Shown here: piece by piece, positions 128 through 23,153 of the stretch
How the letters are laid out: every line of letters starts with the position of its first letter
Position numbering within the stretch: the stretch's first letter is position 1
From: a bacterium
GTDB lineage: Bacteria > Patescibacteriota > Microgenomatia > UBA8517
Reading direction: 5' to 3'
Assembly (NCBI GenBank): GCA_021790215.1
Contig: JAJYIG010000007.1
Coordinates: 1-34,138 of the forward strand
Length of the DNA: 34,138 bases
The notes under the pieces: generated by a model
Database searches by the model: none
What the model was told of the DNA's origin: nothing
What the model saw: the letters and a program-made list of their open reading frames with translations, nothing else
Made by a program: the position numbers and the translations under genes

Positions 128-1084
128 AGTTATAGCTTGTGCAGTTCCATTGTCGGTTATGTCGATATCTAATTTATCTCCCTCAATAGGCGTTCCGGTT
201 AAACCAGAAGTAAAAGAGGTTATAGCTGCGCTTTGAGCCGTAATATGAACAACATCGTATAAATCAGTATTTATAGCAGGGGTTGCTGAGCCTGCCGATA
301 AGAGAAGAGAACGTTTAGTAATCCTTTTATTGGTTAAGGTCTGCGTGGCGGCTAAAAGAGCTACCGTATCTGTTCCTGTAGGAACGGTATTACCATTAAT
401 GGATTTATTCGTCAGGTTTTGTGCGGCGCTTATTAAATCTATTAAAGAAAGCGGGAAAATTGGCACGCTGTTACTATCTGTGCCACTTTGAGTAACGCCT
501 GTAATAGCAGAAGCGCTTGTTACGACTTTAGCTATACGGATAGAATTTGCGGTTAATGCCGGTGCTCCAGCACCATTAGCAACTCCGTTATAGCTATAAG
601 TGCCGTTATTGGCAACGTCTACATAAGTGTCCTGAGAGGCTGTATAGGTATGCCCGCCATCGGAGGGAATAGAGACAAGCGATCCGCTGTAATAAATCTG
701 TCCCGAAGGGATAGTAACAGCCAGTCCCGAACTGGGAGCGGTAAAATTAAGTCCGCCGGTTACAATGTTTTTATATGTTGTTAATGCTTCTAAAAGCTGT
801 GCTAGAGGAATAACGTATTCCGGCGAATCATAATCGACCACGGTAGCGCCGATAGTATGCGTATAGGCGCCGTTGCCGTCATAGTTTCGAACCACAGTTA
901 TTGAATTAGTTCCTCCCGATGTTGCTTGAACTTTTTCCTGAGCAGCTGTTCCGGAATCAATTATTAAAACACAGGGGAACCTGCCCGGAACAGCATTCAC
1001 GTAAAACGTGGTCGAGATCGTATCAGAAACAGCCTGATACAGAGTTGTACTGAACTTACTATTTGGCCGGTTTAAGAATGCCAT
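1..1084 (-). CDS. Tail fibre / receptor-binding-like protein, N-terminal part (continues across contig junction into 34011..33614)
   Basis: Open frame from ATG at 1084 (MAFLNRPNSKFSTTLYQAVSDTISTTFYVNAVPG...) with fibre-type repeats LTNKSINGNT and TQTLTNKRITKR; no stop to position 1; frame continues in 34011..33614. Confidence 0.85.
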   Translation of the reverse strand, partial: MAFLNRPNSKFSTTLYQAVSDTISTTFYVNAVPGRFPCVLIIDSGTAAQEKVQATSGGTNSITVVRNYDGNGAYTHTIGATVVDYDSPEYVIPLAQLLEALTTYKNIVTGGLNFTAPSSGLAVTIPSGQIYYSGSLVSIPSDGGHTYTASQDTYVDVANNGTYSYNGVANGAGAPALTANSIRIAKVVTSASAITGVTQSGTDSNSVPIFPLSLIDLISAAQNLTNKSINGNTVPTGTDTVALLAATQTLTNKRITKRSLLLSAGSATPAINTDLYDVVHITAQSAAITSFTSGLTGTPIEGDKLDIDITDNGTAQAITWGTSFESGSATLPTTTVISTRLDVSFVWNVVTSKWRCVAPAA

Positions 1085-1089
1085 GCAGG

Positions 1090-1119
1090 ATTATACAGTC
1101 GAAAGCGGGAAAAATTGAA
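1090..1119 (-). promoter_or_regulatory. Late promoter for tail fibre: TTCAAT-N18-TATAAT, ATG 5 nt downstream
   Basis: attata 1090-1095 and attgaa 1114-1119 on plus; ATG at 1084-1082. Confidence 0.8.
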
Positions 1120-1122
1120 TTT

Positions 1123-2670
1123 TCAGATTAACGAAGATTTTGGCCACAAATTCCATCCCCAACTCTCCAGCTTAGACAACTTTTCCTCGACCTCATCGCA
1201 ATAGTCGTCACGGGAAATAAAGGGAAGCCCCGCTATACTGACAACAATCGCATCGAGACGCTCATTGATAACTTTTGGTTTATGACCGATAATTGTAATA
1301 TAGGTAAAGGTTGATCCGGTCGGTTCAACAATCCCATAGGGGATATTGTCCTTATAGATAATCTGCAAATTCTTTGCATCCGACCAGTGAAAATGCCGGG
1401 CTTTTTCCGGATGAAAATCAGTGATAATAACCGGCATTTCATAGGAGCTTTCCCTTACCTGTTCAAATTCGTGCAGTTTTTCAATAAAGGTATCAGGAGA
1501 GGAAAGGGACTTTTGCAGTTCTCCTTTCAGGTTTTTATTGTCTGCAAGCTCTTTTTTCAAAAAATCATAGGACATACCCTTAAAGATAGAAGGGGGAACA
1601 TCTATGCGGACACCTACCGTGTATCCTTCGTTCCACTGGACATGTAAATCCTGTCCGTATGCCAATGCCTGGAGTAATTCGCCATAATCGGTTTTTCCAT
1701 ACAGCATCTCATAAAGTTGCGTTACCCAGGGAGAACCGGCCATCCGGACCGTCCACTCAAACGGATGGTACCCCCGCTCATTCATCATGCCGTTTAAGTT
1801 GATAAATCCATGAAATCCTACCTTACGCAAATAAGGCGCCAGAGGCGGATAGACGGTATTAAATAACGGGTTCCCATCTTTTTCCAATCCCCATGCCTCA
1901 TTCATCATTTCACCGGTATGGGGTCCACGATCGCCTGCCAAAAGAGGCTGATGTTCAAAATCAACCTCGCTCCAGTTCAAAAAATCTTTACCGTTAAAAA
2001 ATCCTGAAATAGCAACTTCTACACCGGTAGACCGTTCCTGCAGGAAAAAATGCACCTTTTTTTCTCCACCGAACCCTTTTTCCCGCAAATATGACAAACG
2101 GGCAATCACGTCCATGCCGCTATCTAGTTCTCCCTTATAGTTTAAGGCCCTGATATCCGAATCACCCGCCTCTTTAATCACCCATTTTTTTGGATTGGCT
2201 TCGACAAACTGAATCGCTTTATCAAAGTCGTTAAATTCCTCCTGCGGCAGTATATGAATGTTATAGAAAGAATTGCCATGTTTGTTATTGTAGTCTTCAA
2301 TCTGCTGGCAAATTTTCATACCGTAATCCCGATCATCTTCCCATTTTTCTATTTCCGGATACCCGCATAAGGTCGGGTAGCCTTTTTTAATCCGCTCCTT
2401 AACCCATTTGGTCATCAGGGTGTCTTCAACAACGACAATGGCGTTTTTTTCCAGGAGGTATTTTTTAATTGCCGATTCTTCGGTAATAATTTCCAGACCC
2501 ATATTTTCGTAGGCGTCTTCTAATGTATGAGGGTTGCCTTTATCATCTGTCGGGACGTTAAGAAACACCACCTCATATCCCAACTCTTCCTGGAGCTTAT
2601 AAGGAATGGAAGGTTGCAAAAGATCACGTCCCAGAAAAATAAACAGAGATTTCAGAGATTTATTAGGCAT
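1123..2670 (-). CDS. PurD/GARS-like ATP-grasp ligase
   Basis: 515 aa; LLAGDRGPHTGEMM, GFINLNGMMNERGYHPFEWTVRMAGSPW and C-terminal TGSTFTYITIIGHKPKVINERL resemble phosphoribosylamine-glycine ligase motifs; 8-nt overlap with upstream gene. Confidence 0.7.
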   Translation of the reverse strand: MPNKSLKSLFIFLGRDLLQPSIPYKLQEELGYEVVFLNVPTDDKGNPHTLEDAYENMGLEIITEESAIKKYLLEKNAIVVVEDTLMTKWVKERIKKGYPTLCGYPEIEKWEDDRDYGMKICQQIEDYNNKHGNSFYNIHILPQEEFNDFDKAIQFVEANPKKWVIKEAGDSDIRALNYKGELDSGMDVIARLSYLREKGFGGEKKVHFFLQERSTGVEVAISGFFNGKDFLNWSEVDFEHQPLLAGDRGPHTGEMMNEAWGLEKDGNPLFNTVYPPLAPYLRKVGFHGFINLNGMMNERGYHPFEWTVRMAGSPWVTQLYEMLYGKTDYGELLQALAYGQDLHVQWNEGYTVGVRIDVPPSIFKGMSYDFLKKELADNKNLKGELQKSLSSPDTFIEKLHEFEQVRESSYEMPVIITDFHPEKARHFHWSDAKNLQIIYKDNIPYGIVEPTGSTFTYITIIGHKPKVINERLDAIVVSIAGLPFISRDDYCDEVEEKLSKLESWGWNLWPKSSLI

Positions 2671-5600
2671 TTTTAATTCTTCGCACTTTTAACTTTCGGG
2701 TTGAGGCAGCCGGCATCCGATGGCCGGCAGTTCTTCGTGTTGGCGTACCCGTATATTTACTCAGGTTTTTAGCAATCGGCGCTTTTCTAATCTGAGTAAG
2801 CTTCGTTACATCTGCGAGTGTTAAGGCTTTTACTGGATTGGCAGGGGCCTTCAAGGAGCGACTGACAAGACCTGCTGTTTTTCCACTGGGAAGGTGAAAG
2901 CTGGTTTTTGGTACCTTAAAAGGTTTACCCGCTTCTTTAATAATCGCTTTCCGCTCATTTAAAAGTTTTGCGGAAGAAGTTCCGGATCCTCTGGCAAAAG
3001 AAGTAATCATTCTGCTGTCGGGAATAATTTTACCGTTTTTCTTTTCAAAGGAAAGTTTTTTCAGAGAAGCCGCATCTGACCTGGATAGATAGTTATCCTT
3101 GTAAAGATTATCTATAGTTGTATTGGAAATAAGATATTTTCCTGATAAGGATTTTATCCGCCCTTGGGCGATTGCGGCTGCCATCTGGTCGGGCTGCATT
3201 GCCTCAAGCTGCTGAGTTTGATATGCGGAATTGTCAGTAGCGGTTGCTTGGTAATCATAGGCGACATCTTGAGGATTTAATTTCAAAAGTTGAAACGCCT
3301 GTTGTTTAGTTGCATCAGAAATACCCGAAGAGGCATAGATTTTGTCGGCTGCTTTGTATTTCTTCAGTGTATTCTGATATCCGGCAACTCCCCGGCCGGA
3401 AGTAACAAGAGAAGAAAGATCTTCCTTTACCGCTTTGTTTTTCGTATCGTCAATATAATATAAGGTATTCCCCTTAATTTGAGCTGGTACATCAGTGCCC
3501 TGCTGCAGTTCGTCGTTCATATTATTCAGGGTAGTAATATCATCTGCTGTTAAGGCTTTTCCTCCTGAGGGTTTTGGTTGGTTCATTTTCCCCGTTATAA
3601 TCTGTTGCCAGAGACTATTGGGTGCGGTTGGAGAGGAGGGTACTAATTCGCCTTTACTGGCGCCGGACGTTACCTGCCGCATCCCGGGGGGTATGACATG
3701 ACGGGTACGGGCACCGGTAAGAAATGTTGTCGCATATTCTTTAGGCGTATATCTTCCTTGTTTGTCAGTCAGCATCTGCAGCGGTCCAGACACACTGAAA
3801 GGAACCGGTCCCAAATTAGCAGCTAATTGACCCGCTCCTCTTATTGTCCCCACCACAGGGCCTGATCCTTTGGGAATAATCTGCTGGCCATAGTAATTTC
3901 TATTTGTTAAAACCTGCATGCCCGTTCTTGCAAGAGGGGAGGCTTTTGCGGCTAATTCCTGCGCAGCCCCCATTGGCACGCCATAATCACCCATATTACG
4001 TAACAGATTTACCGCATCGCCTGCTGCACCGACGAAATACATATTTTGATAAATATCCCGTCCCTGTTTATCTTTTCCTAAGTAAACTGAAGTCGGATCA
4101 GATGAGGCTTTCCCGGATAACATCAGGCTTGTTAACTGAGTAAGGACTAGACCAGTGACAGCGCTTCGGACCCAAAAAGCTCGTGCTGCCTGACCGGCAG
4201 GTCCTCCCTTTAGTCCCAGTTGCGCTGTACGGATATTGGAATATGTCCAGTCCGGGGCCAGGAAAAACGCCCGGGCGACATCCTGCGTCAGTCGGTTAAT
4301 TCCTAAATCTTCCCAATTTAACCCTCCATACGCTGAATTGACTTCATCGGCTATCTGCTGTTCAGCAGAGCTTAACTCATTTGTCGAAGCGCCGGGTTGT
4401 TTAGCAATAAACTGCGCTCGCTGCAGAGCAAAATCCGCTACCTTAAATTTCCGCTGCATTTGATTAAAGGTAATATCGGTCATGGTTTTTGCCAATTGGT
4501 CGACTTGTTTAATTCCGGGAAGATTTCGCAAGGTATCAAATGTTCTTCCTATTACTCCTTGATTTTGGGGCAGGGAAGATTTCTTAAGACCACGGTACGC
4601 TTCAATTGTTTTTCCTAATTCACTAGTAGTTCCGCCTCGTTCCACAAATAATTGTTCCATATTCTTAAAATCAGCGGAATCCATACTTTGTCTGAATGCC
4701 TTCACCATGCCTTCTGGTCCCATATTATTGGTTGCCGTCAGGGAAAGAGCCCGCATGTGGAAGACTGACAGCCCCAATTCAATTGATTTAATATATGCCT
4801 GGAACATCCTGCCACGGGCGAAACCAGGGAGACTGTTTAAATAACTGGGGTCAGTAATCGGTTTTAATGCTTCGGCCACTTTTGGCGGTGCCATTAGGAA
4901 ATTTGAACCTGGTACCGGTTTCCCTGTTTTTGGATCTTTCATGGCAAACCGATTTTCAAATAACCGGTTGCCAGGCGCAACCCGTACCCATCCGTCCGGA
5001 ATGTTTGGTGAATTCTCTGTCCCAAATTTCCCCAGTCCGCTCTCCTTCAAAGTTGAAAGCAATTCCTTTGTTGCTGCAACAGTTCCATGACGGGAACCGT
5101 ATAAAGTCATAGCATCCAATGCGTTGAGCGTTGCGGGATTTTTCCCATTGGCAATCGCATGAAGAAGTGTCGGATAATAGCGCTGCTTCCCAAACTCAAA
5201 CGTTCTTCCAATTTTTCCTCCCCGTACGTTACTTATGGGTTTCGGAGGTTCTTCTCCTGTTAGAAGGATATGGTTAATATATTCGTCTGGATTGATCTTA
5301 CTATCCAAAAAACCTAATTTCTTACCTTCGACGAGCTTTTCATTAAAAAACTTTGAAAGTGTCTTATCGGCAGTAACAAGATTAATCCCGGGCTTAAGGG
5401 TACGTTGAATAACCGGTGCAAGGCGCTGTATCCGCTGCAGTGCTTCCTGCTTTACTGCCTGCAGTTGAGCTTTTGTTGCGGAGGGGTTCTCATTCTTGAA
5501 ATTATCCTGAATGGTCTTATAGTAGGGATGAGTTCCATTTAAAAACTGTTGAAGCTCTTTTGGTTTATTTTTGAACTCTCTGTATAAAGTGAGCGCTTCC

Positions 5601-6922
5601 TGATCCTGATAATCAGGAAGAGTTTTTTTCAATTCATCCCGTAACTGATTCGTTTGAACAATACGTTTGTCCCGTCTACCCGTAAAAAAGGTACGAAGTG
5701 ACTGGCCGAAATTTTTTGACTGCGTATTTAAATAGTCGGGAAACTGATTCTGCTTATTGGTGTTAACGGCAGGAGAACCAGGTTCTGCATATTTTTTCAC
5801 TCTTCCCAATAGTTCATTAATTTTCTCTTTTCCGCTTTGGATATCTGTGCCGACTGTCTTTTGTATCTCTCCCGTATCAATAGACCCTTCCCTGTTTCCA
5901 AGCAGATGCTGCCACATGGGTTTTGTTTCCCCGGTCCGCCAGTCATAGACAGGGATGGAAGCTTTCCGTTTTAATTCCAGGAGATTGTCATATATTTTTC
6001 CCGCCGTATCTTTTAGACCCGTTGCCTCCAATCCTTTTCCGGCAGTATTCATTACGGCTTCACCGCCAATATTCATTAACGAACCAACTCCGAAGTTCTT
6101 ACCAATAAAGGCAACTTTTTGATCAGGAGAAAGGTTTTTGGACATATCAGGAAGCATTTGTAACAGATTGGCAATTCCTCCTTTTATTCCCGTTTTTACC
6201 AGCCATTGTTTAAAAGGAAGCGCTGCCTTTGCTTCAGGAAGAAGCGCATCTACCATTCCAAACACTTTTTCATTAAAAGGATTTTTCGTAAATCCCGCCA
6301 TTTGTCCTATTCCCTTGACAACATCCACCTTTCCCAGTACGGGAAGATTGGTCTTGACATCAGGCACGTTTAATGCCGTATTGGGAGTTCCCGTATATCC
6401 CTGATAAAACCCAGCCGCTCCCCGCCGAAACCAATCGTGTTTTCCCAGCTGAGGCGTAAAGGAAGTTAGCGCATTGAAAGCAAGGCCAGGCGGCGTTGCC
6501 GGAGCAACAATATTACTTACTCCTGCTCCCGTCTGTAATCCTCCGCTTAATTTATCAAGAAACGAAGGGGACTGTAGTTTATTTCCCGCTTCACGCAAAT
6601 TTCGCACTCCCTGCATTTGAGAAAGTGCGGTATTGGCGATAAATTGCCGGAATGGCTGCATCCATGAGGGAGAACCCACATCCGGCTGCTGCATCCCCAC
6701 AGAGAAATTGTTTCGTGCCTGTTCGCTGACTTTTGGGTTGGTAAGAATATCGAAATTCGTTCTAAAATTAGAGATAGGTTTTTGCAAACCTGAAGAAATA
6801 GGAGAAAAAAGGCCACTTAACCATGTGGACCGTGTTTGCGGATTTGTGAGGGCAGAGATATTGCCAGTTAAATTGCTTTTTGCCTTACCAAACCAATTGG
6901 AAAGATTATCCAGGAATGACAT
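2663..6922 (-). CDS. Very large (1419 aa) virion protein, probable ejection/internal virion protein
   Basis: Largest ORF, in the late operon between tail and fibre genes; Ala/Gly/Gln-rich with long helical segments; own late promoter. Confidence 0.6.
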   Translation of the reverse strand: MSFLDNLSNWFGKAKSNLTGNISALTNPQTRSTWLSGLFSPISSGLQKPISNFRTNFDILTNPKVSEQARNNFSVGMQQPDVGSPSWMQPFRQFIANTALSQMQGVRNLREAGNKLQSPSFLDKLSGGLQTGAGVSNIVAPATPPGLAFNALTSFTPQLGKHDWFRRGAAGFYQGYTGTPNTALNVPDVKTNLPVLGKVDVVKGIGQMAGFTKNPFNEKVFGMVDALLPEAKAALPFKQWLVKTGIKGGIANLLQMLPDMSKNLSPDQKVAFIGKNFGVGSLMNIGGEAVMNTAGKGLEATGLKDTAGKIYDNLLELKRKASIPVYDWRTGETKPMWQHLLGNREGSIDTGEIQKTVGTDIQSGKEKINELLGRVKKYAEPGSPAVNTNKQNQFPDYLNTQSKNFGQSLRTFFTGRRDKRIVQTNQLRDELKKTLPDYQDQEALTLYREFKNKPKELQQFLNGTHPYYKTIQDNFKNENPSATKAQLQAVKQEALQRIQRLAPVIQRTLKPGINLVTADKTLSKFFNEKLVEGKKLGFLDSKINPDEYINHILLTGEEPPKPISNVRGGKIGRTFEFGKQRYYPTLLHAIANGKNPATLNALDAMTLYGSRHGTVAATKELLSTLKESGLGKFGTENSPNIPDGWVRVAPGNRLFENRFAMKDPKTGKPVPGSNFLMAPPKVAEALKPITDPSYLNSLPGFARGRMFQAYIKSIELGLSVFHMRALSLTATNNMGPEGMVKAFRQSMDSADFKNMEQLFVERGGTTSELGKTIEAYRGLKKSSLPQNQGVIGRTFDTLRNLPGIKQVDQLAKTMTDITFNQMQRKFKVADFALQRAQFIAKQPGASTNELSSAEQQIADEVNSAYGGLNWEDLGINRLTQDVARAFFLAPDWTYSNIRTAQLGLKGGPAGQAARAFWVRSAVTGLVLTQLTSLMLSGKASSDPTSVYLGKDKQGRDIYQNMYFVGAAGDAVNLLRNMGDYGVPMGAAQELAAKASPLARTGMQVLTNRNYYGQQIIPKGSGPVVGTIRGAGQLAANLGPVPFSVSGPLQMLTDKQGRYTPKEYATTFLTGARTRHVIPPGMRQVTSGASKGELVPSSPTAPNSLWQQIITGKMNQPKPSGGKALTADDITTLNNMNDELQQGTDVPAQIKGNTLYYIDDTKNKAVKEDLSSLVTSGRGVAGYQNTLKKYKAADKIYASSGISDATKQQAFQLLKLNPQDVAYDYQATATDNSAYQTQQLEAMQPDQMAAAIAQGRIKSLSGKYLISNTTIDNLYKDNYLSRSDAASLKKLSFEKKNGKIIPDSRMITSFARGSGTSSAKLLNERKAIIKEAGKPFKVPKTSFHLPSGKTAGLVSRSLKAPANPVKALTLADVTKLTQIRKAPIAKNLSKYTGTPTRRTAGHRMPAASTRKLKVRRIKNA

Positions 6923-6927
6923 GCAGG

Positions 6928-6957
6928 ATTATAGCCGAAAAAACCCTGAAAATTGAA
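6928..6957 (-). promoter_or_regulatory. Late promoter for 1419-aa virion protein
   Basis: TTCAAT-N18-TATAAT; ATG 6922, 5-nt gap. Confidence 0.8.
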
Positions 6958-6959
6958 TA

Positions 6960-8300
6960 TTAGGCTACTGAAGGATAGAAGGAAGAAGAAAAGGCGGGAG
7001 TGGCATTACCGAATTGATTACTAATAGCATTAAAGGAAGACAGATTTGTTCCCGTCGGATAAAGAGCGCTCATAATCTGCTGGAGCGTGTTATTGTTAAG
7101 GCCAGGATATTGGGTTTGGATCTGTCCAATAATTTGATCCTGCGTATATCCCTGGGAGGCCAGGCTTGCCGCATCGGTTTGAGCGGCAGCAATAGTTTGG
7201 GCATTATTTAATGGAGTAAAGCCCGTATTGACTGTGCCCGCAGTATTCAAAGTATTTTGTGTTCCCGTATTGAGGTTCTGTAACATGTTGGCAATATTAG
7301 TATTAGATTGTGCCCCGCTTGTAACAGAATCCTTGTACCCGCTCATGAGGTAAGAAATATTATTCAGGGTTGACTGCATTTGGTTATTGATCGCATTCAT
7401 GGCGTCCGTATTATCAACTCCAGCCCGTGCCAGTTCATTCTGGATATCGTTATAGCTTGATTGGTAGCGGTTAATGACGTCATTTTTTGCCTGCGTTTCC
7501 AGGTCATTAAGGTTTTGAACCTTGGTATTGGTTGTCGTGTTTTCACTGGTTATCTGATTGGCGATCTGATCCAGTTGTGATTGTTCCTGGTTGGAGAAGT
7601 TGGTAATATTCTGGGCGGTCTGGCTAGCCGCATTTCCCTGCAAACCTTCGTAGAATGATGAACCCAGGTCGCCCATTGAACGGGCCAATTGTCTGTTTTG
7701 CCGTTGTACGTCCCCCAAAAGCCGTCCCTGATCGGTTTTTTGACCCTCGTAGCCGGTCGTGACGGTATTTTGGGCCGTATTGAGCGTATTGAGGTTGCTG
7801 GCCAGGGTGTCTTTTGCCTGCTGGATAGAGTTGCCATACATGGTACTTAACTGATCAAGGAGGGAATTTTTGGTATTGCTTAGATCGTTTTGCTGATTGG
7901 AGATTTGACCCCGCAGGTAATCGTATTGATGTTGAGCCTGTTGGCGGGCCAGATCCGCATTGGAGCTGACTTGAGCATTTATATCCATGGGTTTAAGTTG
8001 ACCGTTTACATTTTGATATCCAGTTGGGATTACGTCTCCAGGGTTCCAGCCTCCAGTACTTCCACCTTGGTTAGGAGGATTCCAATTTAAGTTATTGGTA
8101 GACATGTTTGGACCGCCGTAATATTGCGGGCTGGAAGAACTATAGTTTATAGGGTCGGCATTTTGAGCACTGGCAGCATATACAGCAGACGGTATCCGTC
8201 CTGAACTATAGGGAGTACCAAGTGGTTCTGAAATACCCAATCCTGGGAGGTGATATGAATACCCCAGACCTGAAAGCCATTTACTTATGTTATTTAACAT
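6960..8300 (-). CDS. N/Q/T-rich coiled-coil virion protein (probable ejection/internal protein)
   Basis: 446 aa, heavily N/Q/T-rich, between nozzle-like and giant virion genes; own late promoter. Confidence 0.55.
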   Translation of the reverse strand: MLNNISKWLSGLGYSYHLPGLGISEPLGTPYSSGRIPSAVYAASAQNADPINYSSSSPQYYGGPNMSTNNLNWNPPNQGGSTGGWNPGDVIPTGYQNVNGQLKPMDINAQVSSNADLARQQAQHQYDYLRGQISNQQNDLSNTKNSLLDQLSTMYGNSIQQAKDTLASNLNTLNTAQNTVTTGYEGQKTDQGRLLGDVQRQNRQLARSMGDLGSSFYEGLQGNAASQTAQNITNFSNQEQSQLDQIANQITSENTTTNTKVQNLNDLETQAKNDVINRYQSSYNDIQNELARAGVDNTDAMNAINNQMQSTLNNISYLMSGYKDSVTSGAQSNTNIANMLQNLNTGTQNTLNTAGTVNTGFTPLNNAQTIAAAQTDAASLASQGYTQDQIIGQIQTQYPGLNNNTLQQIMSALYPTGTNLSSFNAISNQFGNATPAFSSSFYPSVA

Positions 8301-8305
8301 GAAGG

Positions 8306-8335
8306 ATTATAATGAGTGATTTTATAAAAATTGGA
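8306..8335 (-). promoter_or_regulatory. Late promoter for 446-aa virion protein
   Basis: TCCAAT-N18-TATAAT; ATG 8300, 5-nt gap. Confidence 0.75.
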
Positions 8336-8339
8336 TTTT

Positions 8340-8368
8340 TTGCTAAAAACAAAAAAGTGGAGTATAAT
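8340..8368 (+). promoter_or_regulatory. Promoter of CAP cassette
   Basis: TTGCTA-N17-TATAAT upstream of ATG 8378. Confidence 0.5.
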
Positions 8369-8377
8369 AGGGAAGAT

Positions 8378-8899
8378 ATGAAAATAGCTTATTGGGTCAT
8401 ATTGACAATCCTTTTTGTTATTTTCTTTTTATTTGGGTATATCTTTGGGTATATCAATACCCAAATCAATAAAACAGAATTAATGGCAACGCAAGCATAT
8501 CCAACCACTGCTCCTGCGCCCTATATACCCAACTCCGATAAGCTTTGGAATTTAATTGAAGAATGGCGGCAATCACAAGGATTAAAACCGTATGTCAAAG
8601 ATCAAGCGCTTTGTCAGATCGCCACCCAACGAGCAGAAGAACAAAACGCAGCGGGGCAGCTGGACGAACATGCGGGTTTTTTTGCTCGTTTTAGTAAGTC
8701 TCCATATTTGTGGTCAGAAAATGCACAATTTCTTCAACCTGACTATACAAGATTCATTAATAGTGAAACCCTTACTCTCCAAAGCTGGCTTCATTCTCCC
8801 GCACACCTTGCCAACCTCGAAAAACCCTATCTCTATTCGTGTGTGGAGCGTGTAGGAAGAGTATACGATCAGATATTTACATCGTATAGTAAAAATTAA
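8378..8899 (+). CDS. Membrane-anchored CAP/SCP (YkwD-like) domain protein
   Basis: Signal anchor MKIAYWVILTILFVIFFLFGYIFGYIN then LWNLIEEWRQSQGLKPYVKDQALCQIATQRAEE...SENAQF...LQSWLHSPAHLANLEKPYLYSCVERVG (CAP signature); start chosen downstream of TATAAT at 8363-8368; the track ORF starts at 8312. Confidence 0.75.
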   Translation: MKIAYWVILTILFVIFFLFGYIFGYINTQINKTELMATQAYPTTAPAPYIPNSDKLWNLIEEWRQSQGLKPYVKDQALCQIATQRAEEQNAAGQLDEHAGFFARFSKSPYLWSENAQFLQPDYTRFINSETLTLQSWLHSPAHLANLEKPYLYSCVERVGRVYDQIFTSYSKN

Positions 8900-11135: not shown

Positions 11136-11867
11136 TTAGAGATAATTCTTACGGGTATTACCCGAATAGAAATCGTGATCATTGTCAGCATGACGGGCCT
11201 GTTCGTAATTCGCCATGCCGGTTAAGCTCCCGGCAGTATTAATAGATTCGTTCTGAATGATTTCAGCGACCCTGTTTTCGTATTCCTGCCGAAACTCCGC
11301 CATATCCGTATAATTGCCAAGGGACATATGGTATGCGGTTAAGGCAAAAAAGATTACGGCATCCCCATCCAAAAGCACAACGTCTGTGGGATTTACCAAC
11401 AAAGGCGGTGTTGCATAATAAATCATCGTTAAGTTTTGAGTCGTATTGGGTGCAGGATTAAATTGCAGTTGATATAAGCCAGCATTTGCACCGGACAAAA
11501 TGCGGGTAATCCATAAAGTTGTCCCACTATACTGGATGCCATTTAAAGGAACAGGGGAATTGGTAGAGGTTATGGTATTGAAAGGATCGGTATAGACGGT
11601 CGTTCCATCAGCAGTTTGCAATGTCCTTAACGCATTGGGACGATTGAAGTCGGCAAACATCACATAGGTAGCCAGTCCCGCCGTTATCGGAAGCGTTGTA
11701 TTATTGGCAAGCGAGGGAAAAAACCAGCGTTTTGCGATATCTTCCCTGGCTCGATTAAACCAACGGGTGCGTCTCATGTACAAAACATCAGTTACGGCCG
11801 GCGGCGTATCTTCGTTGATATAATCTGAGAAAGACTGATGTAAATCCTGCAGCTGATTAATAATCAT
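11136..11867 (-). CDS. Head-to-tail adaptor-like protein
   Basis: 243 aa, between capsid and nozzle; MRRTRWFNRAREDIAKRWFFPSL typical of podoviral adaptor proteins; leaderless late promoter upstream. Confidence 0.6.
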   Translation of the reverse strand: MIINQLQDLHQSFSDYINEDTPPAVTDVLYMRRTRWFNRAREDIAKRWFFPSLANNTTLPITAGLATYVMFADFNRPNALRTLQTADGTTVYTDPFNTITSTNSPVPLNGIQYSGTTLWITRILSGANAGLYQLQFNPAPNTTQNLTMIYYATPPLLVNPTDVVLLDGDAVIFFALTAYHMSLGNYTDMAEFRQEYENRVAEIIQNESINTAGSLTGMANYEQARHADNDHDFYSGNTRKNYL

Positions 11868-11872
11868 GCAGG

Positions 11873-11902
11873 ATTATACAGTCGAAAGTGGGAAAAATTG
11901 AA
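11873..11902 (-). promoter_or_regulatory. Late promoter for adaptor gene
   Basis: TTCAAT-N18-TATAAT; ATG 11867, 5-nt gap. Confidence 0.8.
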
Positions 11903-12002: not shown

Positions 12003-13223
12003 TTATAAGCCTAAATCCCAGAGATAACCATGTACTCCAGGGACTGAAACTTTTGCTGTATATTCACCTAAAACCTGCCATTTAGAGCTGTCGCCCGTCT
12101 TGGCCAGTCTCTCGGTAAACCAACCCCTGTTCTTGAATGCCTTGTAGCCATATCTCGTCTCGTCAACCACAAAGATAAGGTCATTCAACGCATCGCCGGG
12201 AATCATGACAATGTCAAGTTCCCCTGCTTGAGAAAGATAGGTCGCTGGAACACCGTGCCCCAGTTTCTTATCAGTCCTGTCGACTCTCGTGATACCAATA
12301 TTCCACGTCATCATTCTGCGGAGAGCCTTGTACCCTACATATAAAGCTGTAGGAGTTGACCGGTTGTAAACAAGAGACTGAACTAATGTATCCAGTTTCT
12401 CCTGAACAACGGTGTACTGCTCACCGGTTACGCCTGAAGGAATAAGGGTAGATTGAGTAGTCCAGTTTGTGGAACCACCCGCATCTACTGCATTGGTCGA
12501 AGCATAAGTATCAATGAAATTCTTTAATCCTCCCAATGTCCTTCGGGATATCGTATCATCATAGGCTACGCCTATTAGAAGTGCCGTTTGAAGCATTTCC
12601 ATCAGTTCCTGCTGTTTTATGGTAATCTGATTGGAAGCATTGTCCCGACCTTGATCGGTCTTATACAAAAATGCTTCTTCTTCAGTCCCCGTCAACTGTA
12701 CCACATCCTCGAAAATCTGGGAATAGTTGTACAAATCAGTCAACGGTTGCGTTACAGCATTATCGGCGTCCGCTCCTTCCGGAGCTGCTACACCAACCCG
12801 GTAGATAAAATGTCCTGCGCCACCCGTGTGGGTTGCGGCTGTAGAATTCCATCCTCTAACTACCGTCAATGTCACGCCATCTGTGGCGACTGCGGTAACA
12901 ATCATGAATTCTGAGTCAATTTTAATGACATCATCAACATTGAAAATACCAACAGTTGTTGCCACGGCGGTTGTTGCCGTCGTTGAGGAAATAGAAGAGG
13001 CCAACACATCGTTAGTCGGCCGTAACACTTCCTGTTTCCACTGATATTTCGGATTATCAACCTCCTTCGTGAAAATCTTTCCATCCAGACGAGTCAAAAG
13101 CGGAAATCTTTTCCTTGGATAGCGGGCTACTAAATCCTCAATTGAAATATGAAGATTGTCGAGTTGGGTTGCGCTGCCGGACGCATATGTCGAAACCTGT
13201 CCGTAAAGTGCTGTTGTTGCCAT
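12003..13223 (-). CDS. Major capsid protein (SU10-like / DUF5309-like)
   Basis: 406 aa; IFEDVVQLTGTEEEAFLY..., LVYNRSTPTALYVGYKALRRMM, GELDIVMIPGDALNDLIFVVDETRYGYKAFK; strong SD AAAGGGGGTGA upstream; follows scaffold. Confidence 0.8.
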   Translation of the reverse strand: MATTALYGQVSTYASGSATQLDNLHISIEDLVARYPRKRFPLLTRLDGKIFTKEVDNPKYQWKQEVLRPTNDVLASSISSTTATTAVATTVGIFNVDDVIKIDSEFMIVTAVATDGVTLTVVRGWNSTAATHTGGAGHFIYRVGVAAPEGADADNAVTQPLTDLYNYSQIFEDVVQLTGTEEEAFLYKTDQGRDNASNQITIKQQELMEMLQTALLIGVAYDDTISRRTLGGLKNFIDTYASTNAVDAGGSTNWTTQSTLIPSGVTGEQYTVVQEKLDTLVQSLVYNRSTPTALYVGYKALRRMMTWNIGITRVDRTDKKLGHGVPATYLSQAGELDIVMIPGDALNDLIFVVDETRYGYKAFKNRGWFTERLAKTGDSSKWQVLGEYTAKVSVPGVHGYLWDLGL

Positions 13224-13281
13224 ATAGAATTCACCCCCTTTTTATAAAAAGCAAATGACAGAATTGTTAAGCTGTCTCTTA

Positions 13282-14223
13282 TTAGCGCCCTTGGATAGAT
13301 TTGCGGACACGGGAAGCAAGCAGTTCAGCCGGCGACATTTCCTCTTCGTTTTCTCCCTCTTCGGAAGAATAACGGTCTTGAGAAATTGCCCCTGCCCGTT
13401 TTCTAGTAATTTCCCGATTCGCTTGCCGTTTGCCTGATCCCTGAAACCTTGCAATATCCTTGTAGGTTTTATCAACTACGTGGGGCAAGGTTACTTTCCC
13501 TTGGAGTCCTCCCTGGGCAATAAAGCGCTCACCAATGAGTTGTTCAAGATCCGGATCAAACGCTTTATTTTTCGGATCAAGCTCCGGATGATCATGACGA
13601 ATATTTGTCTTATCGGCATCGTATGATGTCCGTAGACGTTCCACTTGAATCCGGTTCTCAACTCCGTATTTGATACCGGCATCGAGTTTTTTGGCCAGCC
13701 GCTCATCCATATAGGAAGCGAGCTTTTTCAAATCAACTTGGCCGTTTTGGGTCAAGACTTTGGACTCAAGGTCCGCCAAATCATCTTCCTGGCCTTTTCC
13801 AGGCGCCTGCGTCCCTTCTAGACCTCTCAAATATTCCTTGAGAGCGAGCGGGTCGCCTAATAATCGCTTCATATCGGAGTTCTGATTTTTCAGATCCTGA
13901 TAAAAGCGGCTTTCCGGTTCCCTGGCGACTTTCGTGCCACGGTCCGTCAAGTCTTCTTTGCTACTGTCTGTAGCGGATTCTTCGCCTTGAGTTTCCGTAC
14001 CTTCGGCGCCTTCCTGGCCTTCCTCTGGTTTTGTCTCCTCTTGGTCTTCCGAGGGGGACGTGTCCTCCGAGACTTCCTCATTGTCTCTATCTATGACGTC
14101 CTCTTGATCGTCGTCCATATAGGTTTTAACGTCTTGAATTTGTGGCGACGTATCCACGGCTAATGGACATTTAGTTGAAGGATTATATAAATGTATTGGT
14201 GAAAAATTGGAGACTAGCCTCAA
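13282..14223 (-). CDS. Acidic scaffold-like protein (true start probably downstream of 14223)
   Basis: Highly acidic N-terminal region DDDQEDVIDRDNEEVSEDTSPSEDQEETKPEEG, immediately upstream of MCP; promoter at 14182-14211 lies inside the annotated 5' end. Confidence 0.7.
   Translation of the reverse strand: MRLVSNFSPIHLYNPSTKCPLAVDTSPQIQDVKTYMDDDQEDVIDRDNEEVSEDTSPSEDQEETKPEEGQEGAEGTETQGEESATDSSKEDLTDRGTKVAREPESRFYQDLKNQNSDMKRLLGDPLALKEYLRGLEGTQAPGKGQEDDLADLESKVLTQNGQVDLKKLASYMDERLAKKLDAGIKYGVENRIQVERLRTSYDADKTNIRHDHPELDPKNKAFDPDLEQLIGERFIAQGGLQGKVTLPHVVDKTYKDIARFQGSGKRQANREITRKRAGAISQDRYSSEEGENEEEMSPAELLASRVRKSIQGR
14182..14211 (-). promoter_or_regulatory. Late promoter for scaffold/MCP
   Basis: TCCAAT-N18-TATAAT, same geometry; no ATG at the leaderless position. 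Confidence 0.7.
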
Positions 14224-14256
14224 GGATATTGAGCAGAGAAGATTGCGGGGGACAAA

Positions 14257-14286
14257 CTAAATACCCCGCAAAATGCGGGGATTTAG
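14257..14286 (-). terminator. Hairpin/terminator between decoration and scaffold genes
   Basis: CTAAAT-CCCCGC-loop-GCGGGG-ATTTAG stem. Confidence 0.7.
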
Positions 14287-14313
14287 TATCTATCTCGTAT
14301 ACAAAATAGATGA

Positions 14314-14718
14314 TTAAAGGACTATGAACGATATCTTCAATGTTCCGTTCAAAGCCACTGTCGCATGACCGTTCCTTACTATAATCGTCGCCGAACCTGC
14401 AGCGGGCGTTACCGAGAATAACGACGGATCTCCTGTCGTGTTAGTACCGTTACCAACGGACGCCAAAACCGCAGACGTAGCTGTGATAAAGCTATTAGTC
14501 AACGTTAAGGTGTAATCAGCCCCTGCTGCGGTAGTCAATGACTCTGAGGTAATTATTCCTGCCGGTGCATTTAATGTAGCCGCCCCAGCCGTCGCAGATG
14601 CTGTTTGGATATTATTGGCAACTTTTGCATTGCTTTTCAGCGTTACTCCTTTTCCACTAAACGTAAACTCCCCGTTTGCCTCATTATATGAAGCTAAATT
14701 TCCTTGAAATTCTGCCAT
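14314..14718 (-). CDS. Putative head decoration / beta-rich virion protein
   Basis: MAEFQGNLASYNEANGEFTFSGKG...; SD GAAAGGGGGTGATAATT before ATG at 14718; late promoter upstream; the track ORF starts at 14727. Confidence 0.55.
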   Translation of the reverse strand: MAEFQGNLASYNEANGEFTFSGKGVTLKSNAKVANNIQTASATAGAATLNAPAGIITSESLTTAAGADYTLTLTNSFITATSAVLASVGNGTNTTGDPSLFSVTPAAGSATIIVRNGHATVALNGTLKISFIVL

Positions 14719-14751
14719 AATTATCACCCCCTTTCAATCTTTCAATATAGG

Positions 14752-14781
14752 ATTATAATGCTGAAAGTGTGAAAAATTGAA
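14752..14781 (-). promoter_or_regulatory. Late promoter for putative decoration gene (with SD-containing leader)
   Basis: TTCAAT-N18-TATAAT; followed by a short leader with AAAGGGGGTGA. Confidence 0.8.
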
Positions 14782-14794
14782 TATTAGAGAAGTT

Positions 14795-15154
14795 TCAAAC
14801 TATTCCAAGTCTTATTATTTTTCCCTTTACTAACTGATGAATACCAGGAACAAAAATACCTCCACGGGGACACCGGATACATTTTATATGCACTCGTCCT
14901 CCTTCCCGTTTCCCGTTATTTTCAAATGCAAAATAATGTTCGCTTTCCTTGCACATTTTGATTGAGGATAATTCGGCGTAGGCAACTTTATGCTTAATGA
15001 TCTTTTCTGCGGGCGAGAGGCCAGTATATTCCAATTGCCCTTCTTTATTTATTGTAAAGAAGGGAACATCTTCAACGACTTTTTCCTCCTCCTCAATCCA
15101 TTCATTAAGTTTTGGTGTTTTGCTATTTGAATCCATAGACGCATTTAATGCCAT
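14795..15154 (-). CDS. Conserved-looking structural-region protein with CxxC (function unknown)
   Basis: 119 aa; VHIKCIRCPRGGIFVPGIHQLVKGK. Confidence 0.55.
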   Translation of the reverse strand: MALNASMDSNSKTPKLNEWIEEEEKVVEDVPFFTINKEGQLEYTGLSPAEKIIKHKVAYAELSSIKMCKESEHYFAFENNGKREGGRVHIKCIRCPRGGIFVPGIHQLVKGKIIRLGIV

Positions 15155-15378
15155 CTTGTTTTTGCATTTTTGGCAAAGACTAATTCACGTAACTTTTTTA
15201 CCTCAGCCCTCGTTTTGTTATTTTTTGCCTTAAGATTCTTTATTTGCGAATTGATCTTTGAGAGCGGAATTTTACTTCCCTGTTTAACATGCATCTTTTT
15301 ATGCAGCAAACCTTTACGGACTTTTGAGCCATAAAAGTTATACGATTTATTTCCTATCCGTGCTTTCATATCTTTCAC
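15145..15378 (-). CDS. Small highly basic protein
   Basis: 77 aa Lys/Arg-rich; overlaps the next gene by 10 nt; SD-like AAGGAGGTG upstream. Confidence 0.5.
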   Translation of the reverse strand: MKDMKARIGNKSYNFYGSKVRKGLLHKKMHVKQGSKIPLSKINSQIKNLKAKNNKTRAEVKKLRELVFAKNAKTRWH

Positions 15379-15382
15379 CTCC

Positions 15383-15550
15383 TTAGCGTGCGCCTACATA
15401 TTTATGATGTGTAAGCCTTGATATTTTCCGTTCTAGTCCTCGCTCCTTCGCACTCTTATGAGGAGTCCTCTCCAATTTTTTCTCCTCCTGCATCAGTTCC
15501 TTCACCATCTTGGTGTTGTATTGTCTTCCTGGTTTTCCTGTTTCAGACAT
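15383..15550 (-). CDS. Small basic protein
   Basis: Translated by eye: MSETGKPGRQYNTKMVKELMQEEKKLERTPHKSAKERGLERKISRLTHHKYVGAR*; fills the gap between neighbours. Confidence 0.5.
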   Translation of the reverse strand: MSETGKPGRQYNTKMVKELMQEEKKLERTPHKSAKERGLERKISRLTHHKYVGAR

Positions 15551-15553
15551 AAG

Positions 15554-15886
15554 TTATATCACCCCCCTTGCGCCTTTTATAGGCTTTTTCTTTTTTTTAA
15601 TTCCCATCCGCTCGGCAATCGTTGACCGGATACCGTCCATACTTTGCCTATCAACCATCGCTTGGTCATAAGCGGAGCCCTTGGGCGCTGTCTTTTTTCC
15701 TTTCAGCTTGTTGTAATCTTTCAGATGAGCAACGGTACGGCCATGACGACTGGCAGTTTTAACCCCTTTTTTGAATGACTGCCCCATTTTTCCTCTGGAA
15801 TTTTCCATTCCAAAGTAAATACTCTCACCTTTCTTTTTCCCGTATTTTTTTACTAATGAATTCATCAGATCAATATTTACTGGCAT
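15554..15886 (-). CDS. Basic protein, phage head-region
   Basis: 110 aa; SLVKKYGKKKGESIYFGMENS motif and Lys-rich C-terminus; between portal and capsid genes. Confidence 0.55.
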   Translation of the reverse strand: MPVNIDLMNSLVKKYGKKKGESIYFGMENSRGKMGQSFKKGVKTASRHGRTVAHLKDYNKLKGKKTAPKGSAYDQAMVDRQSMDGIRSTIAERMGIKKKKKPIKGARGVI

Positions 15887-16259
15887 GTGTGCTCACCTCC
15901 TTTGTTTGATCTTCCACTATAACCTGCTTATTTTTAATTGCTTCCTGTAATTTTTTGGGTCCCTCTATAATTGACTGAATAAAATCCAATAACAGTTTAA
16001 TTTCCAGATACCGTCCGGAATATTCGGCCTTCTGCTGATCGGCAGTAGTTATATATGTTTCGCTTCCGGTTTCAGTTTTCACGGTTTCCTCCAATGTCCG
16101 CAGCCGGTTTTCCAATAACAAGTTTTTAATATACTCCAAACGTTCCATCAACTCAGTTTCAATGATTTTCCATCCCGTGCTCCGTTTCATGCCACGGAGC
16201 GAATCTGATTCTTCCTGAATCTTCAGTTTTCGTTCTTGGCTGATAGTCTGTTTAGCCAT
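15870..16259 (-). CDS. Helical protein downstream of portal
   Basis: 129 aa, predicted helical, overlaps both neighbours. Confidence 0.5.
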   Translation of the reverse strand: MAKQTISQERKLKIQEESDSLRGMKRSTGWKIIETELMERLEYIKNLLLENRLRTLEETVKTETGSETYITTADQQKAEYSGRYLEIKLLLDFIQSIIEGPKKLQEAIKNKQVIVEDQTKEVSTHASKY

Positions 16260-18294
16260 TGGTCAAGGTGTTTTGAATTGGTAATTTTGACCGAATTGGT
16301 TGAGCGGTTTTCCGTAATTGTTGTCCTTGTTGCCGTACTAACCCTTGAGTATTGACTGCGGGATGAGAAAATGGTACTTTCTGTGACGGTGATTGAAACT
16401 GCTGAGGTTGTTGTGCCTGAGCAGTTTGCGGTTGTGACTGCTTAATTTGCTGGATTAACTGATCAACAGGCAATCTTTTTCCCAACTCCTCCAATAGGTT
16501 TTCATCATAGGACAACTCCCATGTCTTGTGGTCGTTAATATGGCTCATAACTGCCTGTACTTGATCTTTCGTTAACTCCTTACTTAACAAAAGGTGCTGG
16601 TGGATAATGTTATGCATTTTGTGGTTGTCGGAGGCTTCCACCTCTACCAGCTGACCCTTGAGGAGTAGTTCATTTTCTTCCAGTGCTTCTTCCCGGTCAT
16701 CTGGGACAATTTCATCAAGGTCGGTTTCTCCGATAAGTTCAATCAAACTTCGCCAGATGGGAACGGTGTTTATTTGCACCTTCTGTTCCCTGTCGGCCAT
16801 GGATTTGATATTAATGAGGTTTTGGAGTTTAATCATGGGATTTTTGGGAAGTACCGAATTGGGGATGACTATTGGATCAAACTCATTAGAAACCTCATCT
16901 GGTTTAATACTCAAATGTTTATACCCATGCCGCCCCACAATTTTGATCGTTTGCTCATCGGTGATAAACTGTGTATTAAGTCTTAGGAATTGCTTGGTAA
17001 GTTCAACCAACGTGTGTTTTTCAAGAATCGTCATAAAGAGTTTTAGGTTTTGATCAAGATTTTGCTCTTCCATGTTTAATGCAGCTGCTCCCTTTGCTCC
17101 TGCGCCTTTTTGCGGCAGTCCCATCGCCAGAAAATCGGAAATACCGGTAGCCCGCTGAATGTCAGTTTTTATCTCCCCCATCATCTGCATGGCTTGGGCG
17201 GTAATATCTTTATGCGCTACTTCCCGCAAGTTTTTAATATCACCCTTGACATGGATGACGCCATTGGGGCGGGAAATAAATTCCCAGTCGGGGATGTGTG
17301 TATCGGAAGTCATCCACATATTGTTAAGTTGTTGGCGTGCGTTGGTCAGATATTGATTAAGAACCGAATTCAAGCCCATTTGCAGGTCCTCAATGGGACG
17401 CACAATTCCCGATGAAAAATACTCATCGTCTTCCGGGAAAAAGGGTGTATCCAAAATCGGATATTCGCCATGCCAAAAGGGATTATCTTCATGCCGTATT
17501 TCGTATTCAGGATGTCTTCCCACTATTTCTGTTACCTTATTGGAATCCTTATCCCACATCTCCCAGGTTTCCATAAGTCCCGCATCCACCAGGAAATCGT
17601 CGCTATCGTTAAACATGACGTCCCGCCCATAGTCCACAAAGCGGACAAAGAGATTTTTATCTTTAACCTTTTTGAGATTGTAAACGTCTTCCTGACGGGA
17701 GTCGTTAATTTTTTTCATTTCTCCCATAGTCCGCCAATGCCGGATAATTATCCACGATTGTTTTTGCAGATCAGCAATGTTCCTGTTGGCAACAAACAAA
17801 TCAAAGACTCTTAAGTTATCCAGGTCGGTCCGGTTAATCATAGGATACATAACCACGCTGCGTGTTTTCCCATTTTCCTGTTCCTCTTCAATCACCTTTT
17901 CTTTTTGATATTTCCAGCCTGTTTGCAGATATCCTCTGCCATATAGAGCAGATTGAAAAACATGACGGGCGATCTTCAAAAAAAACCCTACCTCATTTAA
18001 CTCCCACTCTATCAGTTTCTGGTTGATATCAGTCTTCGGTCGGCTTTCCTCATTCCATGCCTGGAGTGTTACGCCGATATTCGGCGACACCGTACGGGCA
18101 AGAAAATTACGCAATACGGTAAAAACAAACGGATTGAATAAATGGTAATCCCACGGATAATCCTGCGTATCGGTAATTTTGGATTTAAATAGTTGTCGAT
18201 AGCGGGCAAACTCATCAAAGATGGGAGTTTGTTGATCGTAGGCGAACCTGAAGCGGTTATTAAGCACCTGTCCGATTTTCTGTTTTTTGGCCAT
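16252..18294 (-). CDS. Portal protein
   Basis: 680 aa, in terminase-portal-scaffold-capsid order; FFPEDDEYFSSGIVRPIEDLQMGLNSVLNQYLTNARQQLNNMWM typical of portal proteins; Q/P-rich C-terminus. Confidence 0.8.
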   Translation of the reverse strand: MAKKQKIGQVLNNRFRFAYDQQTPIFDEFARYRQLFKSKITDTQDYPWDYHLFNPFVFTVLRNFLARTVSPNIGVTLQAWNEESRPKTDINQKLIEWELNEVGFFLKIARHVFQSALYGRGYLQTGWKYQKEKVIEEEQENGKTRSVVMYPMINRTDLDNLRVFDLFVANRNIADLQKQSWIIIRHWRTMGEMKKINDSRQEDVYNLKKVKDKNLFVRFVDYGRDVMFNDSDDFLVDAGLMETWEMWDKDSNKVTEIVGRHPEYEIRHEDNPFWHGEYPILDTPFFPEDDEYFSSGIVRPIEDLQMGLNSVLNQYLTNARQQLNNMWMTSDTHIPDWEFISRPNGVIHVKGDIKNLREVAHKDITAQAMQMMGEIKTDIQRATGISDFLAMGLPQKGAGAKGAAALNMEEQNLDQNLKLFMTILEKHTLVELTKQFLRLNTQFITDEQTIKIVGRHGYKHLSIKPDEVSNEFDPIVIPNSVLPKNPMIKLQNLINIKSMADREQKVQINTVPIWRSLIELIGETDLDEIVPDDREEALEENELLLKGQLVEVEASDNHKMHNIIHQHLLLSKELTKDQVQAVMSHINDHKTWELSYDENLLEELGKRLPVDQLIQQIKQSQPQTAQAQQPQQFQSPSQKVPFSHPAVNTQGLVRQQGQQLRKTAQPIRSKLPIQNTLTNG

Positions 18295-18299
18295 GGAGG

Positions 18300-18329
18300 A
18301 TTATACCGTTCAATTGTTAAGAAATTGAA
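18300..18329 (-). promoter_or_regulatory. Late promoter for portal gene
   Basis: TTCAAT-N18-TATAAT; ATG 18294, 5-nt gap; -35 overlaps the 3' end of the sigma-4-like gene. Confidence 0.8.
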
Positions 18330-18727
18330 TAATTGTTATTTTTTGTTAATACTTTTCTCAAACGTTTAAGGTAATAGGTAAGGGTTCCCGGATCCATTTC
18401 CCAAATAGTGGCTATTTTTTTCTTCGTTATGTGATAACCCATTTCACGAGTAACAAAAAGAAGAAGTGCGATCGTGCGGTATTTATCGTTTGGCAGTGTT
18501 TTAATTAAAAAAAATAATTGATCTTCTCCTATTACGTTTTTAAGATTTTGATCTTCTTCACCAAACTCGACGGGATTATCGTTTTCACTTTCCTGGGCGT
18601 CCAGTGAGGAAAAAGACATCTCAACAATCGGACGCTTTATAAAACGCTTTTTTAATAATCGTTGATGGGTTTGTTTGACAAGTTCGGCCAACAACTCCTT
18701 TTCCAGTTTGGAATAGTAAACGCTCAT
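18317..18727 (-). CDS. Sigma-70 region 4-like / ArpU-like regulator, candidate late gene activator
   Basis: 136 aa; LPNDKYRTIALLLFVTREMGYHITKKKIATIWEMDPGTLTYYLKRLRKVL fits a sigma-4 HTH pattern; next to terminase. Confidence 0.55.
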   Translation of the reverse strand: MSVYYSKLEKELLAELVKQTHQRLLKKRFIKRPIVEMSFSSLDAQESENDNPVEFGEEDQNLKNVIGEDQLFFLIKTLPNDKYRTIALLLFVTREMGYHITKKKIATIWEMDPGTLTYYLKRLRKVLTKNNNYSIS

Positions 18728-19035
18728 AGATATTTCAACTCTTTAAGTTTTTTGGTAACTTCCCGGACAAGCCGGCGGTCAGTAAGTGTTGGTTGATAGT
18801 GATCCGGCCCAATATCATACTGGCTCTCTATTTTTCCATGGAAGAGGGGATCAATTTCTTTTTTCATCCATGCTTCGGCAAGAAGAATGACATCAGCCCA
18901 TTCTGACAAGAGATTACGAAGTTCAATACTATTATTTAATCCCATGGCTACTGCATCATGGTGTTTATAGATCAATAAGCGGCGGGTGATTACTGACCGT
19001 TTATACCCCTCTTCACAAATACAAAGAATTTTCAT
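18724..19035 (-). CDS. Low-molecular-weight protein tyrosine phosphatase-like protein
   Basis: 103 aa; MKILCICEEGYKRSVITRRL = C-X5-R-S loop at N-terminus; ADVILLAEAWMKKEI and YDIGPDHYQ (candidate general acid). Confidence 0.6.
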   Translation of the reverse strand: MKILCICEEGYKRSVITRRLLIYKHHDAVAMGLNNSIELRNLLSEWADVILLAEAWMKKEIDPLFHGKIESQYDIGPDHYQPTLTDRRLVREVTKKLKELKYL

Positions 19036-22187: not shown

Positions 22188-23153
22188 ATGAAAGACTTAG
22201 CACTTATAAACAACGAAGACTGGTATAAAACATTAGTTCTGGAATGCAAAGCCATAATTACCGAGGCCGTATTTACTTCACGCTGGGCCTTGGTGGAGGG
22301 AAATATGGAGCTTGGAAAACGGATAAGAGAAGATATAAATTTCAAGGAGTACAGTAAAGGCAATAAACGTTCCGTGCAAGACCTTGCACGGAACATAGGA
22401 CAATCAGAACGTACGCTATATTATGCGCTTCAACTATTTGATATATATAAATCAGTAGGCAATCTTCCGGAGGGAAAAAATATCTCAATGAATAAACTAA
22501 TAACTAAATATTTACCCCTCTATAGAGAAGAAATGATAAAAAACTTTGAGTATAAAGAGCTTCCGGAAAATCTGCAAATTATCAACGGAGACTTTAGACA
22601 GCAAAAAATAAAGGAAAGCTCAATCGACTGCATTATAACCGATCCGCCTTATCCAGAAGAATTCTTGCCGCTCTATGAGGATCTGGCAAACTTTGCAAAC
22701 AAAGTATTAAAACCAAGCAAATTTTGCATAGCATACAGCGGCCATATTCATTTAGACAAAGTAATCAATCTAATGTCTAAATATTTGCAATATTACTGGA
22801 TATTCGCCATGTATCAGCCAGGGCCAAATAAATTGATATTTTCAAGAGATATAATGACACGCTGGAAGCCTATTTTAATATTCCAAAAACCTCCTTTTAA
22901 GACTTTAGACTATCCTATTCAAGATTATATTATCTCAGAAAAACGAGAAAAATCAGATCACGAATGGCAACAGTCAGAATCGGCCGTTAAAAATCTTATT
23001 GAACAATTTACGGAAATAAACGAGATTATATGCGATCCTTTTTCCGGCTCAGGCACATTTTCTAAAGTAGCCCACGAATTAAAAAGAAAAGCGATCGGCA
23101 TAGAGATTGATACAACAACTTATAAGATTTCACTGCAGCGGATTTATGGGTAA
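22188..23153 (+). CDS. DNA methyltransferase (DPPY-type N6A/N4C) with N-terminal HTH-like domain
   Basis: IDCIITDPPYPEEF and EIICDPFSGSGTFSKVAHELKRKAIGIEID motifs; N-terminal RSVQDLARNIGQSERTLYYALQLFDIYKS. Confidence 0.88.
   Translation: MKDLALINNEDWYKTLVLECKAIITEAVFTSRWALVEGNMELGKRIREDINFKEYSKGNKRSVQDLARNIGQSERTLYYALQLFDIYKSVGNLPEGKNISMNKLITKYLPLYREEMIKNFEYKELPENLQIINGDFRQQKIKESSIDCIITDPPYPEEFLPLYEDLANFANKVLKPSKFCIAYSGHIHLDKVINLMSKYLQYYWIFAMYQPGPNKLIFSRDIMTRWKPILIFQKPPFKTLDYPIQDYIISEKREKSDHEWQQSESAVKNLIEQFTEINEIICDPFSGSGTFSKVAHELKRKAIGIEIDTTTYKISLQRIYG

Follow-up and report, generated by a model that had tools for sequence, protein, structure and literature searches.

The gene at positions 1123 to 2670 on the minus strand of the window (the whole stretch of 34,138 nucleotides analyzed here) encodes a PurD-like ATP-grasp protein that is, as judged from its sequence, a member of a distinct and widespread family common to phages, Patescibacteria, archaea and many bacteria. 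We put the probability at about 0.68 that this protein is a late-expressed carboxylate-amine ligase that is not a GAR synthetase (PurD) and that uses an acceptor other than phosphoribosylamine (PRA). The assignment of the gene as PurD-like and non-GARS draws on its reading frame, a match to GARS_A, profile scores, an AlphaFold2 model and a PDB match.

The gene and the phage genome that carries it

The reading frame encodes 515 amino acids, begins with ATG and has no internal stops; its location on the minus strand is a correction to the earlier note. The start of the gene and the end of a 1419-aa reading frame (2663 to 6922, minus strand) overlap by 8 nt, ATGCCTAA, ATG on stop, as had been claimed, and the overlap supports the proposed coupling to a virion gene. 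The 1419-aa protein is a large virion protein, probably an ejection or internal protein, based on its homology to a protein from another phage locus (L226, below), and its gene is preceded by that of a 446-aa virion-type protein (6960 to 8300, minus strand) with weak matches to tape-measure PHROGs. The gene that follows the ATP-grasp gene (1 to 1084, continuing over the circular junction to about 33614, minus strand) had been described as a tail fibre gene. The placement of the ATP-grasp gene between these two neighbours stands, and the tail fibre identity is likely from position, the sole match being phrog_3030, which is of unknown function.

The window spans the whole of contig C28, which is part of a small, nearly complete assembly of 993,967 bases. 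Positions 1 to 127 are repeated exactly and directly at 34012 to 34138 and an open frame crosses the contig junction, so the phage genome is complete and circular with a length of ~34,011 bp. It encodes an SU10-type major capsid protein (12003 to 13223, minus strand; Pfam SU10_MCP, 7.8e-34), an SU10-type portal protein (16252 to 18294, minus strand; SU10_portal, 2.8e-17), an SU10-type adaptor and a terminase.

Five mismatch-free copies of TATAATCCTNCATG are found on the minus strand of the window (1082-1095, 6920-6933, 8298-8311, 11865-11878 and 18292-18305), each of which ends in the ATG of a minus-strand gene (starts at 1084, 6922, 8300, 11867 and 18294, respectively). The number expected by chance is 1.3 in the window, even when two mismatches are allowed. 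The element is promoter-like, and as a phage promoter class it would yield leaderless or nearly leaderless mRNAs. The copy at 6920-6933, TATAATCCTGCATG, touches the ATG of the 1419-aa gene, and the same element at 1082-1095 precedes the putative tail fibre gene. There is no copy before the start of the ATP-grasp gene at 2670, and this gene is therefore probably transcribed together with the 1419-aa gene from the element at 6922, which likely drives the pair. Late expression of the ATP-grasp gene is suggested by its position and by the promoter-like motifs.

The bin to which the contig was assigned is a Patescibacteria genome of ~1 Mb. In the same bacterial family, a genome that is complete in one contig (G084) carries a prophage whose portal and capsid proteins are related (4.6e-16 and 3e-10, respectively); the 40 kb read there contain no relative of the ATP-grasp gene. 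These prophage genes lie at 12247-18895 of locus L264 (G084:C1, about 477-484 kb). The GC content of the window is 0.404, which is alike to the 0.38-0.43 with which it was compared, and the tetranucleotide correlation is moderate (0.43). A Patescibacteria host is plausible, and a binning error may have misplaced the contig. Neither purD (best 21.7 bits, cut-off 288) nor purF (best 38 bits, on a 624-aa frame that is probably GlmS; cut-off 350) was found in the bin. With no purF, no PRA would be made and a GAR synthetase would lack its substrate. No purine gene turned up in those window proteins that were scanned with Pfam, which agrees with the earlier remark that no other purine biosynthesis gene is visible.

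A PurD-like family in cells and phages

The window protein matches GARS_A above the Pfam cut-off (1.3e-6), and its best PDB match by sequence is the PurD of A. aeolicus (3e-6). The match to the NCBIfam purD model (TIGR00877; 4.7e-7) reaches 29 bits and fails the equivalog cut-off of 288; two relatives, L015 and P0002, reach 113 and 83 bits. The sequence similarity to GARS is beyond chance. The AlphaFold2 model (76 aligned sequences) has a mean pLDDT of 87.6 and a pTM of 0.87, with a poorly modelled insertion at about residues 361-410. The Foldseek match to 2yw2 has an E value of 1.5e-23 and a TM score of 0.76 on the target; the 15 best PDB structure matches are GAR synthetases (E 5e-24 to 3e-19), followed by biotin carboxylase. 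The predicted fold is thus that of a whole GAR synthetase, and the description of the protein as a full-length GARS-like ATP-grasp protein holds at the fold level. A comparison with the viral models of BFVD gave no match over the full length of the PurD fold; the highest TM score on the query was 0.39.

The N-terminal region had been said not to look like canonical PurD, and this was confirmed. The window protein has no Pfam match to GARS_N, which is absent from all of the family members that were scanned and is matched at 1.3e-34 by the PurD control; the family members match GARS_A and usually GARS_C. The GGREHA motif is absent from the window protein and lost across the family, and the window protein is also missing the RFGDPE motif, that is, the R[LF]GDPEx[EQIM] signature (PS00184).

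Profiles built without the window protein score it at 206 bits (cellular set), 203 bits (phage set) and 32 bits (PurD set). Relatives were found by profile searches in well over 100 IMG/VR loci and in phage MW202796 (P0002); a single-sequence scan of viral contigs had returned none. Of the 389 genomes of the phylum, 12 others carry relatives that score >340 bits, and further relatives occur in DPANN and other archaea, including haloarchaea (L193 and L256), and in bacteria of many phyla. Some members are plasmid-borne, e.g., those of Halarchaeum and Chondrinema, each of which is 55% identical to an Omnitrophota member. With the A3 profile the cellular members score at least 345 bits and canonical PurDs below 140. 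The locus L003 was used as a PurD control only. MT839088 (H2) and most of the other "phage" records returned by tblastn encode what seems to be an ordinary bacterial PurD and were rejected as probably bacterial contigs. In one Patescibacteria genome (G188, locus L110) two PurD-like genes lie in tandem.

PurD and the PurD-like family are split at 100% support in both trees. The window protein lies inside the family, outside PurD, in both. Its branch (2.5-2.8) is the longest, and in one of the trees it groups with mostly cellular rows (98/96). Topology tests on this long-branched row rejected neither a tree that held it with PurD (p-AU 0.24) nor one that joined it to a 21-row phage clade (p-AU 0.21). 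Topology tests by themselves do not fix its place, which was decided from profile scores and diagnostic residues. The protein carries the residues of the family and does not cluster tightly with housekeeping PurD.

The phage synteny survey covered 31 dereplicated loci, with gene calling that is crude in GC-rich contigs. In 16 of the 31, the PurD-like gene is preceded on its own strand by a gene of at least 400 aa that ends no more than 600 nt before it (in 8 of these the two genes touch or are at most 6 nt apart), and in the other 15 no large gene ends within that distance. Among the phage neighbours are matches to ejection, internal virion, transglycosylase, endolysin and tail-fibre families, and in one case the upstream gene encodes a DNA primase. 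In phages the PurD-like gene therefore recurrently, not universally, follows large virion or ejection genes. The central part of the 1419-aa protein is homologous to the large protein encoded directly upstream of the ATP-grasp gene in a distant phage, L226 (colinear stretches, 2e-8 and 5e-5); the ATP-grasp proteins of the window and L226 are only about 25% identical. An SU10-type portal scored above the cut-off in 6 of 28 other phages; the SU10 major capsid search matched nowhere in the other phages and is hence uninformative. A decarboxylase seen among phage neighbours was not found in L247 and L239, where the neighbours are fibre-like (collagen, beta-helix). These two are ~160 kb phages with two PurD-like genes each, located near the collagen-like or beta-helix fibre genes.

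It is possible, although unlikely, that the gene is cargo, i.e., a cellular metabolic ligase parked behind a virion gene with no functional meaning to its place. The cellular members are stand-alone genes, both chromosomal and plasmid-borne, that move between domains, and the grouping of the window row with mostly cellular rows agrees with this explanation. A conserved neighbourhood of the cellular members was sought and none was found, so their context gives no pathway. Against the cargo explanation, the position behind large virion or ejection proteins recurs in several phage clades, the upstream protein is homologous in the case of L226, and the tests did not reject the joining of the window row to the phage clade.

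Active-site residues and inteins

The residues of 72 cellular and 32 phage members were surveyed in the numbering of A. aeolicus PurD, with the residue roles taken from PMC8880213. The ATP core residues K143, E192 and E283 are kept in the window protein as K166, E218 and E305, as are E100 (E111) and the carboxylate arginine R287 (R309); K143, E192, E283 and R287 are kept across the family. E283 and N285 of PurD are presumably Mg ligands, as in ATP-grasp enzymes. Family-wide changes include D212 to E and N285 to T (both in 100% of the members), K103 to R (96-98%), G227 to E (95-96%), E185 to Q, D290 to Y or W, and E292 to T and others. All five of the diagnostic states (R103, Q185, E212, E227 and T285) are present in the window protein as R114, Q211, E239, E254 and T307. 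The glycine contacts of PurD, D212, R287 and E292, correspond to E239, R309 and W315 in the window protein and to E (100%), R (100%), and T or another residue in the family; at D290 the window protein has S.

The window copy also has changes of its own. K214, an ATP/Mg lysine that is conserved in 100% of the cellular and 93% of the phage members, is replaced by Q241, G229 is replaced by M256, and MN stands in place of the GT in TGEMGT. It had been asked whether the ATP and Mg ligands are lacking: the equivalents of K143, E192, E283 and R287 are present, whereas N285 is Thr, as it is family-wide, and K214 is Gln in the window copy. With one ATP/Mg lysine lost, the activity of the window copy itself is uncertain, and together with the longest tree branch, the strong divergence and the poorly modelled insertion these substitutions could indicate a copy that is catalytically dead or nearly so, serving for binding or as a scaffold or decaying in an otherwise enzymatic family. 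We regard this as quite unlikely, since the 515-aa frame is open, the predicted fold is confident, and K166, E218, E239, E254, E305, T307, R309 and the C-domain residues R487 and D489 are all kept. It is highly improbable that the gene is an auxiliary metabolic gene (AMG) whose product, although divergent, is a real GAR synthetase and raises purine synthesis for the phage. In favor of this explanation are the shared fold and domain order, the GARS_A match and virome surveys that list phage "purD" among the AMGs (PMC11097641, PMC11360552). Against it are the loss of the glycine contact E292 and the neighbouring D290, the D212 and N285 substitutions, the missing GGREHA and GARS_N, the 32 bits to the PurD profile versus 206 to the other family, a bin with no purF to supply PRA, and a window with no purine gene among the proteins scanned with Pfam. 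The earlier suggestion that the enzyme does not make GAR is very probably correct, given the profiles, the residues and a bin without purD or purF.

In L229, L230, L231, L237 and L238, an insertion of ~300 aa lies inside GPN|SGEMG, with Cys as its first residue and Asn as its last before Ser, and in L247 (592-2949) an insertion lies inside EFT|CRFG. Pfam matches on the three insertion proteins scanned were LAGLIDADG_3, with Intein_splicing in L247. By these sequence features the insertions are inteins, at two sites in two clades and both in active-site motifs. Intein sites in these motifs are as expected because active sites are conserved.

Proposed reaction and relation to known systems

In the reaction that we propose, the conserved arginine (R309, equivalent to R287 of A. 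aeolicus PurD) would still hold a first substrate, whose carboxylate would be phosphorylated by Mg-ATP, and an amine other than PRA would then attack the acyl phosphate. The loss of the N-terminal motif and the missing purF argue for a non-PRA acceptor; the mode of PRA binding in PurD itself is unsolved (PMC8880213). Phages would express the ligase late, together with the ejection/tail module, and in the window the promoter of the upstream 1419-aa gene would also serve the ATP-grasp gene, with the two genes translationally coupled. With a shared promoter and coupling, the product or target of the ligase would be needed in assembly, release or the next entry. We infer the amide-bond chemistry, the late timing and the non-PRA acceptor from these data.

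As a separate family, these enzymes probably join molecules other than those joined by the purine enzyme. Our guess is that there is about an even chance that the acceptor is a small molecule or peptide of both prokaryotic domains; that it is the ejection protein itself is doubtful. The former is favored because the cellular members are stand-alone, and the many such members also argue against a substrate found only in the virion. A broader reading, in which the ligation reaction is common to two domains and phages and the phages apply it to the coupled ejection protein or to a particle-borne compound, modifying these for DNA delivery, is tentative and rather improbable. If it is true, counts of phage "purD" AMGs would be partly wrong.

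GAR synthetase (PurD, EC 6.3.4.13, TIGR00877) and the window protein are alike in their whole-chain fold, the order of the ATP-grasp and C domains, and K143, E192, E283 and R287. They are unlike in that the window protein has no GARS_N or GGREHA, carries D212E, N285T, G227E, D290S and E292W, scores only 32 bits with a PurD profile, and comes from a bin without purF. A 2011 study (PMC3261824) judged two extra haloarchaeal PurD-like proteins, rrnAC0307 and Hlac_1553, not to be actual GAR synthetases, as they are without GARS_N, the Mg sites and the Asp of RFGDPE. These traits match the PurD-like family, and the two proteins, likened here by their published description alone, are probably members of it; the study assigns them no function and does not connect them with phages or virions. 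It was the only paper found in a literature text search for "PurD-like". Phage amidoligase, R2K and LUZ24-type enzymes are also phage-borne ATP-grasp proteins but belong to other families, and the R2K families were proposed to modify proteins (PMC4431377, PMC3890496, PMC6209634). In the LUZ24-like phage UFV-P2 the ATP-grasp gene is one of the early-module genes, alongside those for an amidoligase and an amidotransferase.

PurD-like genes may enter counts of purine AMGs in phages, while their residues indicate something else. With the diagnostic residues, genuine purD genes can be told apart in practice from look-alikes, and a small set of proteins can be named for assays. The family is present in Patescibacteria, in DPANN and other archaea, in many bacteria and in several clades of phages, and it combines clean diagnostic residues with active-site inteins.

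The window also encodes a CAP-domain protein (8312-8899, plus strand) on the opposite strand inside the virion gene block, an N6/N4 DNA methylase (22188-23153, plus strand), a SocA/Panacea-domain protein (30592-31128, minus strand) and a GH25 lysozyme (32095-33018, minus strand). Additionally, 12-nt units are repeated head-to-tail for ~300 nt (27743-28042, plus strand) within a 294-aa reading frame (27300-28184).
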